From Ignisphaera cupida (GTDB taxonomy: Archaea; Thermoproteota; Thermoprotei_A; Sulfolobales; Ignisphaeraceae), in the NCBI RefSeq assembly GCF_030186535.1, contig NZ_JASNVW010000003.1, positions 124,001 to 188,000 of the forward strand: 64,000 bases of DNA, in the 5' to 3' direction. Under the pieces are notes generated by a model. That model did not search any database. It was not told the origin of the DNA and saw only the letters and a list, made by a program, of their open reading frames with translations. Below, in pieces: positions 8,765 through 13,056 of the stretch (its first letter is position 1; every line of letters begins with the position of its first letter). A program made the position numbers and the translations under genes.

Positions 8765-8945
8765 ATGTTTCTCGATACGGCATTAGTGGAAGGAATATCA
8801 ATCACTATTCATCGTGACCGAAAACTCATCATATTTATAATACAAGAGTTATCCGACTGCAGTCACCAACATAATTGAACTCCAGCACGCTTTGCGAGCT
8901 TCTAGTAGGAGGTGTTTTCAGGTTTTGAGTGGAGTAATCACATTA
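8765..8945 (+). pseudogene. VapC toxin remnant
   Basis: ATG 8765 begins MFLDTALVEG, the first strand and catalytic aspartate of a PIN toxin. After a frame change near 8850 another frame reads TAVTNIIEL, the second conserved strand with its glutamate. The remnant then runs into the 3' end of the opposite-strand VapC. A short frame just before it (8586-8786, ending in IVNEIEELLEKIRK) overlaps this start the way an antitoxin tail would. It may be debris of a second antitoxin. The C-terminal half of the toxin is gone. Confidence 0.55.
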
Positions 8946-9355
8946 ATGTTTAAGACATTGCGTATTTCATTAGCTTTCCTAATTATATCTGTATCGAGTG
9001 TGACGAACTCACTACACATAGCTTTACTACAGGCTACAATATGGAGCAGATCGAGTGTTTTAAGCTTTAGGATGGGGGCATAGGTGAAAGACTCCTTTAG
9101 GACATCGTTGAAATCTATTTCTACGAGCTCGGCCCCCACTCTCCTCGTTGAGTAAATCGCTAGTGGCAGTGGATCCCTTAACCCAGCTCTTGAGTAAACC
9201 GAAGCTAGTTCTACAAGTGTCAGTTTGGATACTACTCTCTTTCCATTAATGTTATCCACCAATGCCACAACCTTCTCGTGATTTGGATCCGCTTCATCAA
9301 CATAGGATATGATGACATTAGTGTCTATGTAGATTGTTCTTGAGCTTCTGTTCAT
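8918..9355 (-). CDS. vapC: VapC-type PIN-domain toxin
   Basis: A 145-residue PIN ribonuclease. Catalytic acidic residues are visible in order: D in IYIDTNVIIS (about residue 11), E in LTLVELASVY (about 49), D in LDLLHIVACSKA (about 102) and D in VTLDTDI (about 119). Such toxins cleave tRNA or mRNA in a Mg-dependent way when released from the antitoxin. The gene starts at ATG 9355, three bases after the antitoxin stop, so the two are one operon. Length is normal and no lesion is visible. Confidence 0.88.
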   Translation of the reverse strand: MNRSSRTIYIDTNVIISYVDEADPNHEKVVALVDNINGKRVVSKLTLVELASVYSRAGLRDPLPLAIYSTRRVGAELVEIDFNDVLKESFTYAPILKLKTLDLLHIVACSKAMCSEFVTLDTDIIRKANEIRNVLNINVITPLKT

Positions 9356-9358
9356 GAA

Positions 9359-9610
9359 CTAGCGACCCCTATCCTCCTCCAACACCCTGCTTAGGCCACC
9401 ATGCCTCAGCCTAAATCCCTGTCTCTCCAACTCCTCAACCCTCCTGAGGACATCTTCCCAGAATTCAACCTCCCTCACAACCTCTTTCAAACCCTTCTCA
9501 ATCATTATGTTGAAAGCGTGAGACCTACTCCTAGCAATACCATACCTCACCATTTTATCAGCAAGCTCCACCAACTCTCTACGCACCTTAATTGATACAG
9601 AAACACTCAT
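9359..9610 (-). CDS. vapB: Ribbon-helix-helix VapB antitoxin
   Basis: An 83-residue antitoxin. The first 45 residues form a CopG/Arc-type ribbon-helix-helix: the basic strand VSVSIKVRRELV, then helices around ELADKMVRYGIARSRSHAFNIMIEKGL. The acidic and arginine-rich C-terminus would wrap the toxin. The start is ATG 9610, preceded by AAAGGTG. That ribosome site partly overlaps the end of the CRISPR-like repeat at 9620-9643, so a relic repeat now sits in the 5' region of this operon. Confidence 0.85.
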   Translation of the reverse strand: MSVSVSIKVRRELVELADKMVRYGIARSRSHAFNIMIEKGLKEVVREVEFWEDVLRRVEELERQGFRLRHGGLSRVLEEDRGR

Positions 9611-9619
9611 AAGCTACAC

Positions 9620-9915
9620 CTTTCAATTCCATTTGATGGATTTCGAATTTTATTCTGTCGGATGAGACTTTCCATTGCTGGATTCTGAAGCATTTGCTAT
9701 AAACTATGTTGAATTGAGTATAAAAGTTTTTAGCTAGTTAACACCATGTAATGGTTATGATCATTAATCATCAATGATCTGAAGAAGTCATCACTACAAT
9801 GCCTCTATTAAAATGAGCTTCATAAACTCTAATTGTAAAGAATTGACTAAATTATATCATAAAGAAAATCTTTATGGCTTATAAAAGCTTTTAAAAGACT
9901 TAAATATCATTGCAA
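9620..9915 (-). repeat. CRISPR-like leader with a single repeat (relic copy 1)
   Basis: Reading the minus strand, a leader-like AT-rich segment (about 9915-9644) ends in a 24-base unit at 9643-9620 that terminates in GGAATTGAAAG, the 3' signature of many crenarchaeal CRISPR repeats. The 24-base unit matches a second copy at 10400-10423 at 23 positions. The adjoining 270 bases are recognisably homologous to that copy but diverged, and homology stops exactly at the end of the unit. That is the behaviour of leader plus first repeat. No spacer array or cas gene is present. It could instead be the end of a mobile element. Confidence 0.55.
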
Positions 9916-10069
9916 TACCATTATTGTCCATATCAAATGTTTATAGAGTTGAATAGCTTAAAACTCTATTGCTTATTGGCTTCTGAAAATCTGAATTCGT
10001 TAAACGACATTGAGAGGAATTTCATGTTAAGCTTAAAACATTCTTCCTGTAGCTTTTCATGGTGAGATT

Positions 10070-10397
10070 TTGTCTAGGTTCCTTCTAGTTGCTCTTATAA
10101 TTGCAATTGTTGTAGCTGAATCAATTGGGTATTCATTGGGCTTAGTGCAAGGGAAGTTGTAACAACTAATATATATTATAACAACTACATAACCAACAAT
10201 TGTTGTTGTCACAGCTTCAGAAAACAACATTCACCACAACAATTGCTCAAAACCAAAGCAACGCTACTAACACCTATGAGACATCAAAAGAAACAGTTAC
10301 TCAATCAGCCAAAGAAACAAAAACAATAGTGAATGGAAATACTGTCCTGATTATAATAGGTGTGATATTTATTGCAGTTGCAATTGCTTTCCTCAAA
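10070..10397 (+). pseudogene. Thr/Ser-rich membrane-anchored protein, frameshifted and 3'-truncated
   Basis: TTG 10070 opens a signal-anchor (SRFLLVALIIAIVVAESIG), which stops at 10162. A second frame from about 10200 carries a Thr/Ser/Asn-rich stalk (TTTIAQNQSNATNTYETSKE) and a C-terminal membrane span (TVLIIIGVIFIAVAIAFL). Together they make a small surface protein with signal, stalk and anchor. The coding character ends where the second leader-repeat begins (10400), so the 3' end was replaced when that segment arrived. Confidence 0.5.
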
Positions 10398-10399
10398 TC

Positions 10400-10690
10400 C
10401 TTTCAATTCCATTTGATGGATTCTGATCCTTGTTCTGCCAGTTGAGATTCTTCATTTATGGGCTCTGAAGTGTTCATTATAAATTGTGTTGAATCAAGTG
10501 CAAAAGCTTTTAAGCTGAATAAAGTGACGTGAGAATAACAACTTTCAAGCATCAATGATTTGAGGAAGTGATAAGTACAGCATGGTTATTGCAGTGAGGC
10601 TCATGAGGGTTTTAAGTTGACTAGGTTACCTAGACAAAGAAATTTTTGTGGCTTGGTAAATGTTTTTAAAGGGTTTATGTATCTTAGCAG
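10400..10690 (-). repeat. CRISPR-like leader with a single repeat (relic copy 2)
   Basis: Second copy of the segment at 9620-9915. The repeat-like unit is at 10423-10400 on the minus strand and the leader-like part runs to about 10690. Conserved blocks shared with copy 1 include TCTGAAG, ATAAA(C/T)T(A/G)TGTTGAAT, the TCAATGAT(T/C)TGA(G/A)GAAGT block and AAGAAA near the far end. The unit carries one more conserved base (final C) than copy 1. Beyond the unit, the sequence is the truncated membrane-protein gene and shares nothing with copy 1. Confidence 0.55.
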
Positions 10691-10830
10691 CTCATGAACT
10701 ATATGTTGTAAATGATAATTAATTTGTGTAGAAATCAAATAGATGTGATTGAAGGTAATGCATTTGTATATAAAAACCTTTTTAATGTATTTGAGAGTTT
10801 GGTGAATGAAGTTAGAAGTGGGGTTGTTGT

Positions 10831-11154
10831 TTGAGGGAGCCGCCAACTTGGCTCATCAATATCTTGAGGAGGTTTGTTGCTGAGGCTGAGAAGCTTCTGG
10901 GTTCTGTTGAGGTGTATTTGTTTGGTAGTTATGCGAGAGGTGATTGGCTTGAGGATAGTGATGTGGATTTGATTGTTGTGTCCCCGGCTTTCAGAGGTTT
11001 GGATGTTGGGAAGAGGTATTCTATTGTTAGAAGATTTCTCCCAAAGGACATGGGCTTTGAAATACTAACCTACACACCTGAAGAGTTTGAAGAGGCGAAG
11101 AGGAGAAGTGTTGTGTTGCAGGATGCTATGAAGTACTGGATAAAAATAGAGTAG
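10831..11154 (+). CDS. MNT-type nucleotidyltransferase (minimal NTase)
   Basis: A 107-residue minimal nucleotidyltransferase. The catalytic motif is VYLFGSYARGDWLEDSDVDL (about residues 27-46), the GS-x10-DxD signature that binds ATP and two metals. The third acidic strand is FEILTY (about 75-80). These proteins pair with HEPN partners; characterised MntA antitoxins AMPylate and silence the HEPN RNase. The partner gene follows seven bases after the stop. TTG 10831 is the start, by the alignment of the N-terminal helix. Confidence 0.85.
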   Translation: MREPPTWLINILRRFVAEAEKLLGSVEVYLFGSYARGDWLEDSDVDLIVVSPAFRGLDVGKRYSIVRRFLPKDMGFEILTYTPEEFEEAKRRSVVLQDAMKYWIKIE

Positions 11155-11160
11155 GGGCTT

Positions 11161-11571
11161 GTGGGGTTGAGTAGAGAAGAGGCTATGGATTGGCTTGAAA
11201 GTGCAGAGGTTGATTTGAGTGAAGCGAGAGAAGCGTATAGGCGTGGAAGCTACCATCTATCGGTATTCCCAGTGCATCAATCAGTTGAAAAAGCTTTAAA
11301 GGCTTACATCATTGACTGTTTGAGAAAAAGGCCTCCAAGAACCCATGACCTGGTTGAGCTAGCTAACCACACAGGGTTGCAGCTGGGGGAAGACATCTAC
11401 GAGGCCTTGTCTGAGCTATCGCCATACTACACAATATCGAGATATCCAAATGCTGGACTTAGAAAACCGTGGAGAGAAATAGGTCGTGGCACTGCAGAAA
11501 GATTTCTTTCCATTGGAGAAAAAATTTTGAGCATAATCAAAGAGAAGCTAGCTCAAAGCAGATGTGTCTAG
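11161..11571 (+). CDS. HEPN-domain protein, partner of the upstream MNT
   Basis: A 136-residue all-helical HEPN protein. The N-terminal helix is AMDWLESAEVDLSEA, then HLSVFPVHQSVEKALKAYII, the conserved A/Q-x-x-x-E-K-x-x-K-A helix. An R-x4-H-like active-site motif (RKRPPRTHDL, about residues 57-66) marks it as a probable ribonuclease. The C-terminus has SRYPNAG, common in this family. Start is GTG 11161 or TTG 11167. It is the toxin side of a HEPN-MNT module. Confidence 0.85.
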   Translation: MGLSREEAMDWLESAEVDLSEAREAYRRGSYHLSVFPVHQSVEKALKAYIIDCLRKRPPRTHDLVELANHTGLQLGEDIYEALSELSPYYTISRYPNAGLRKPWREIGRGTAERFLSIGEKILSIIKEKLAQSRCV

Positions 11572-12491: not shown

Positions 12492-13056
12492 AGCTTATCA
12501 CACCCACCAAAATGTTGCAGCTCTTTACAAGCCATTAGATATGAAAACTCTTTGCATCTTTAATAAAAAGCAATGAACATGTGGTGCAAGGGTATAAACT
12601 GTCTCGAGTATGGGAAAAAGACCTTGAAATTCAATAGAATAGAGTCCAATAGAAGATCTCGACAACAAATCTTTACTGTAATACTAGATCCCAGCATAAA
12701 AGCCTTAGTTCAGCAGTTTAATTTCATTTATTTGATTTCCACATAAAGCAATAGAGTTTTAATTATCCAACTTCACAAAACATAAGCATTTTTGCCACAC
12801 ACGGTTAAGAGTTTGCTAAAAGTTTTTTGCCAAGCTATAACCATTTTCTCTACCAATGAGATGTTATGAGATTAAGTTAATTCTTCTCTAAACCCTTTAC
12901 AAAACAATTTGCAATTGCCATTGCATGGACTCAACAAGAATCCAAAATGGAGTTGAAAGTATTTTTACATTCAAAACATTTCAGATTTTCTTGGCAAAAC
13001 ATTAGACAAATTTAAGTTTTTGTCTAGATTAATTGTATTAGTTGTTGGGTTGCGGT
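12492..13056. other. Intergenic region, no gene seen
   Basis: AT-rich, without recognisable coding frames or RNA boxes. Near its 3' end a TTTAAGTTTTT element (13010-13020) is a likely TATA region for the downstream amidohydrolase. Confidence 0.45.

Follow-up and report, generated by a model that had tools for sequence, protein, structure and literature searches.

Two segments of the window (the whole stretch of 64,000 nucleotides that was analysed, which is C3:124001-188000 of a 1.74 Mb genome in 14 contigs, here called G000) end in a CRISPR-like repeat unit, and one of them stands immediately ahead of a toxin-antitoxin operon. This raises the question of what these segments are, from where they came, and how they may have reached their present places.

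Each window segment consists of a CRISPR leader and a single repeat

An earlier note on this DNA had described two homologous segments in the same orientation, 780 bases apart, both ending in a 24-base unit with 23 identical bases, and this description held. The units at 9620-9643 and 10400-10423 (minus strand) indeed differ at one position of 24, and the segments align with 221/301 identities. The alignment score is 97, against an average of 3 and no value above 19 in 300 mononucleotide shuffles, and a search of G000 with the 23-mer at up to three mismatches gave 61 matches against 0 for the reversed control; chance similarity of the two segments was thus ruled out. Only the lengths needed correction: instead of the 270-290 bases first proposed, the leader measures about 330 nt in copy 1 and about 290 nt in copy 2, the whole segments running from 9620 to about 9975 and from 10400 to 10714 (Table 1). 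Homology does end at the unit end, as the note had it, the next 100 bases of the two flanks being 31/100 identical, which is about the level of chance. Several repeats with unique spacers were not found at the window copies; each has one repeat, and what follows over 100 bases is unrelated gene DNA, which argues for a relic rather than an array. A third repeat relic, of greater age, may lie in the window as well; what could be left of its leader (12810-12926) is doubtful, the leader models giving just 8-10 bits there.

Table 1. Features of the two window copies and of their surroundings (positions in the window).
Feature	Position	Strand	Basis
vapC toxin (PIN domain)	8918..9355	-	Pfam PIN, 58.7 bits
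vapB-like antitoxin ORF, ATG 9 nt beyond the copy 1 repeat	9359..9610	-	ORF
Copy 1, single CRISPR repeat AAATCCATCAAATGGAATTGAAAG	9620..9643	-	23-mer equal to a repeat of array C7:154-176
Copy 1, complete CRISPR leader, conserved distal end included (AGCAATAGAGTTTTAAGC at 9956-9973)	9644..9975	-	Leader model, 244.5 bits
Copy 1, repeat-like motif within the leader, about 42 nt ahead of the repeat	9666..9686	-	Alignment
Copy 1, BRE/TATA-like block, intact (AAAAACTTTTATACTC)	9716..9731	-	Present in all active leaders
3' part of a putative degraded gene, with C-terminal membrane helix; its frame enters the copy 2 repeat from the opposite side	10200..10445	+	ORF
Copy 2, single CRISPR repeat GAATCCATCAAATGGAATTGAAAG	10400..10423	-	
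Copy 2, CRISPR leader with a diverged distal end	10424..10714	-	Leader model, 244.4 bits; alignment
Copy 2, TATA-like block, degenerate (AAAAGCTTTTGCACTT)	10496..10511	-	Alignment
Possible third, older repeat relic AAGAATCCAAAATGGAGTTGAAAG	12936..12959	+	Repeat core with one mismatch

The same genome carries arrays with this repeat and related leaders

Most of the 61 repeat matches belong to arrays on contigs C5, C7 and C10 (consensus GAATCCANNAAATGGAATTGAAAG). Copy 1 is 73-78% identical to four array leaders (about 300 nt aligned, E 5e-60 to 2e-43), the value for the leader of array C10:3708 being 78%. Common to these four leaders and copy 1 are a BRE/TATA-like block AAAAGCTTTTATAC, which in copy 1 is a putative promoter, a repeat-like motif 42 nt ahead of the repeat, and the distal end AGCAATAGA(G/T)TTTTAAGC. 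The segments had been read earlier as relics of CRISPR leaders with a repeat, and a search of the host genome for an array with the same repeat and a related leader had been proposed; both were found, which supports that reading. The genome also contains cas6 (C5), a Cmr operon with Csx1 (C10), a gene for a CARF-type protein (C7) and cas1 (C8:2304-3086, 217.6 bits), so that an adaptation gene is present.

In Sulfolobales, type I-A CRISPR loci have repeats of 24-25 bp and leaders of 200-400 bp (PMC4390879). The window copies resemble these loci in repeat length, in the GAATTGAAAG-type repeat end, in leader length and in the AT-rich leader, and differ from them in being single-repeat and spacerless. 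The relevant passages of that review mention a locus without leader and internal deletions, but no dispersed arrayless leaders.

Two arrays of G000, C5:13494-14462 (L053) and C7:2125-2652 (L057), have no recognisable leader of the copy 1/copy 2 family, and the former begins at a distance of 44 nt from where the divergent cas6 gene starts. This genome contains both leaderless arrays and arrayless leaders. In another family of the same order, the arrays on contig C35 of G026 (L069) have a practically identical repeat, GAATCCATTAAATGGAATTGAAAG, and only a weak leader match. No Cas1 match whatever was obtained in G004, G005 and G006, yet leaders or arrays are present there.

Arrayless leaders of G000 branch from its own active leaders

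Two profile models, of leader plus repeat (R1) and of the leader alone (R2), gave results that agree. G000 has four leaders with arrays and at least 14 with a single repeat or its remnant (R2, about 30 bits or more, both window copies counted); with weaker candidates added, its arrayless leaders number about 20. One or two clear single-repeat leaders are present in each of the congeners G001, G002 and G004 (in G002 at the end of a contig). In G005 one leader has a single repeat and another has two, and G006 and G009 have arrays, while at the same score the R1/R2 search gave no leaders in G003, G007, G008 and G010. In the closest relatives, G005 and G006, dispersed orphans are absent.

In a maximum-likelihood tree of the leaders, from which the repeat was excluded, the orphans of G000 cluster with the active leaders of the same genome, apart from those of G005, G006 and G009. 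The branch separating the G000 leaders has 100/100 support, and the branching order inside G000 is weak. As the orphans branch from the genome's own active leaders, they arose within the G000 lineage, and the tree, together with the empty sites in congeners, shows a lineage-specific family derived from those leaders. Terminal branches of the orphans measure 0.12-0.74 changes per site (0.16 for copy 1, 0.36 for copy 2), against 0-0.07 for active G000 leaders. This divergence also bears on the idea that the assembler collapsed real arrays, which might be suspected in a draft genome with several contigs terminating within arrays. Orphan leaders are far more diverged than array leaders, their flanks are native gene borders, and single-repeat leaders are found in several other genomes as well, so we consider such an artefact very improbable.

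In two orphans (C7:16001-16153 and C10:3003-3107) the leader's repeat-like motif is joined directly to the 3' half of the repeat, as if the 42 nt between motif and repeat had been lost by recombination.

Collapse of an array to a single repeat is seen in a congener

One leader in G006 heads an array of 17 repeats. The counterpart in G005 has a leader that is 296/330 identical (repeat counted in), then one repeat, and then a trailer that is 1473/1500 identical (98%) to the sequence after the last repeat of G006; the array has collapsed to one repeat. This supports the relic status of the window copies. Neither copy 1 nor copy 2 has a spacer remnant beside it, which speaks against their being dead loci, and for them we infer the former array and its collapse from the congener.

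Array collapse is already known. In Legionella pneumophila, recombination between the first and the last repeat leaves a leader with one repeat (PMC7056967; reviewed in PMC8047081), in likeness to what is seen between G006 and G005. The Legionella case concerns one locus beside its own cas genes, which can be refilled in the laboratory, whereas G000 has at least 14 dispersed and diverged copies, most of them without adjoining cas genes, at sites that are empty in congeners. The new part is the size of the family, its origin in a single lineage, and the exact borders at the repeat.

The repeats of the orphans have decayed much less than the leaders. The comparison covered positions that do not vary in a set of nine leaders, seven from arrays and two that collapsed recently. 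At these, the nine best-preserved orphans were changed at about 18% of leader positions, while the last 13 nt of their repeats were mismatched at 1/117 positions, where about 21 mismatches would be expected (Poisson p = 2e-8). Simple decay after collapse does not predict this, which weighs against the dead-locus reading in its plainest form. Retained function would explain the conserved repeat end, and so would late collapse of arrays that were still transcribed after the death of the leader; since the latter could give the same pattern, we make no claim of selection on orphan repeats. In copy 1 the junction of leader and repeat is altered, over a stretch corresponding to the Cas1-binding region known in Sulfolobus (PMC9456107), and spacer acquisition at this copy thus seems doubtful.

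Orthologous loci lack the leader, and one orphan pair is a clean insert

Orthologs of the genes adjoining eleven orphans were located in congeners, and a leader match was present at none of the 40 orthologous loci inspected. Three orphan sites are flanked by synteny to the left and to the right, and at these the orphan corresponds to an insertion of about 222-227, 440 and 161-167 nt. The 439-bp insert at C5:74957-75395 consists of two leaders head to head, with the repeats facing outward, and it splits an amino-acid-kinase gene in the third codon before its end. When its flanks are joined, the C-terminus reads YTLIMH*, of the same length as in the orthologs (YTTVMC*, YTIVMP*, YTLLLP*, YTLIIP*). 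Both borders, read at base level at this one site, are the last G of a repeat, and neither target-site duplication nor base loss was found there. A version with a 3-bp target duplication was dropped, as the duplication-free version alone restores the C-terminal length of the orthologs. Integration by Cas1-Cas2 would be expected to leave a repeat-sized duplication, and so this clean insert is hard to fit to it.

For the copy at C2:244559 the comparison with the empty site gave no clear border. For the window copies no orthologous array site was found. Nor could an empty site be read for them, and this latter point also counts against regarding them as dead loci. Upstream of the orphan at C1:17030 (L120), the gene is inverted relative to congeners (L138, L139, L167).

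Might the orphans be copies of a small non-autonomous mobile element, formed by a leader and one repeat or by head-to-head pairs, with the 3' end of the repeat as its end? Most of them would then have been spacerless from the start, with arrays growing from some seeds. The insert at C5:74957-75395 has the defined ends of a transposable element, with nothing duplicated or lost, and some classes of such elements produce no target-site duplication. A further head-to-head pair with outward repeats lies at C2:293081-293566, and repeat ends are intact on decayed leaders. The distance from repeat end to gene border, gathered by hand, has a median of about 10 nt in 16 orphans against 111 nt in nine array ends (Mann-Whitney p = 1e-4), as if no trailer had been carried along. 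Yet no transposase was seen beside the orphan copies inspected, nor was a known mechanism identified for them; moreover, the distal ends of the leaders vary, and the collapse between G006 and G005 accounts for single repeats without any mobility. We therefore regard a mobile element as unlikely. A related proposal is that the CRISPR loci of the G000 lineage were founded by inserted leader-repeat units, single or head-to-head, with the repeat 3' end as outer border and no target duplication, with a few of these seeds growing into arrays and others being taken over as promoters or as the ends of genes; we put it forward tentatively, as possible though rather doubtful.

The distal part of the leader is itself a weak inverted repeat (C2:293257-293391; C10:512-654) centred about 243 nt from the end of the repeat, which coincides with the centre in the head-to-head pair; leaders may derive from a bidirectional pair.

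Orphan repeats abut gene borders, vapBC among them

As the earlier note had observed, the copy 1 unit abuts the ribosome site of vapB: the last base of the repeat completes a ribosome-site-like GGTG ahead of this gene. The orthologs of vapB in G003 and G004 precede vapC and have no leader upstream, which, together with the intact TATA-like block, suggests that the copy 1 leader may serve as promoter and 5' untranslated region of vapBC. The ORF that runs into the copy 2 repeat from the other side would be a truncated gene. Adjoining copy 2, an ORF resembling a nucleotidyltransferase and, after it, a HEPN-like one (10831-11571) probably form another toxin-antitoxin pair, judging from the sequence.

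Elsewhere, genes start 0 nt after the orphan repeat at C5:88012, 0-15 nt after it at C8:21186, and inside it at C2:244559; genes beginning at orphan repeats include DUF72 (directly after), a MarR-like gene and a DUF84 NTPase with its start codon in the repeat. One may ask whether single-repeat leaders are kept as regulatory elements, the leader acting as promoter and the Cas6-cut repeat as part of the 5' untranslated region of the next gene. These gene starts agree with it, as do the intact block of copy 1, the cas6 gene of the genome and the unusual preservation of the repeat end, which is the putative cut site; a Cas6-cut vapB message would be predicted to have 5' ends starting AUUGAAAG. Against this, eight orphans point at a gene start and about ten at a gene end, so that orientation is not biased to promoter use, and the repeat end is just as intact where no gene is served. 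We consider this explanation quite unlikely, and promoter capture as the driver of the spread was not supported.

The vicinity of toxin-antitoxin genes recalls the CreTA modules of haloarchaea, in which a CRISPR repeat outside an array lies next to a toxin-antitoxin pair (PMC9458426). There, ectopic single repeats are typical, and the repeat RNA guides the CRISPR effector to the promoter of the nearby toxin. The window copies differ in having intact, not degenerate, repeats and a whole leader, and a spacer-like match to a local promoter is absent: in the 40 nt past each repeat, the longest match elsewhere in the window is 10 and 13 nt, none near vapBC. A CreTA-like module was hence rejected as extremely improbable.

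Probable dead CRISPR loci in a family of collapsed leaders

We consider it probable that both window segments are dead CRISPR loci and belong to a lineage-specific family of repeatedly placed, collapsed and drifted leader-repeat units. Units ending exactly at the repeat would have been set repeatedly into new chromosomal sites, from active leaders of the genome; all spacers of each locus would then have been lost through recombination between repeats, leaving a leader and one repeat, and the leaders would have drifted, as their long branches show. In the case of copy 1, which occupies the promoter position of vapBC, a transcript from the TATA-like box of the leader would pass the repeat into vapB, and the Cas6 encoded in the genome could cleave the vapB message within that repeat. 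In favour of this reading are the presence, in a genome with cas1, cas6 and Cmr, of arrays that share the repeat and have homologous leaders, the collapse in a congener, the orphans that branch from G000 leaders at loci where congeners have none, and inserts of the expected size at syntenic sites, the clean one among them.

What is unusual here is how many copies there are and how cleanly units ending exactly at the repeat were inserted; in the open-access literature we found no paper on orphan leaders or neo-CRISPR loci. The case bears on how new CRISPR loci are born at a distance from existing ones. In G000, leaders that have arrays, leaders with one repeat and remnants that can barely be recognised form a graded series, and relatives show the empty sites. 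Such a series makes it possible to order the birth and death of CRISPR loci in time and to read their borders. The leaders land where host genes, vapBC included, could be driven or truncated by them.
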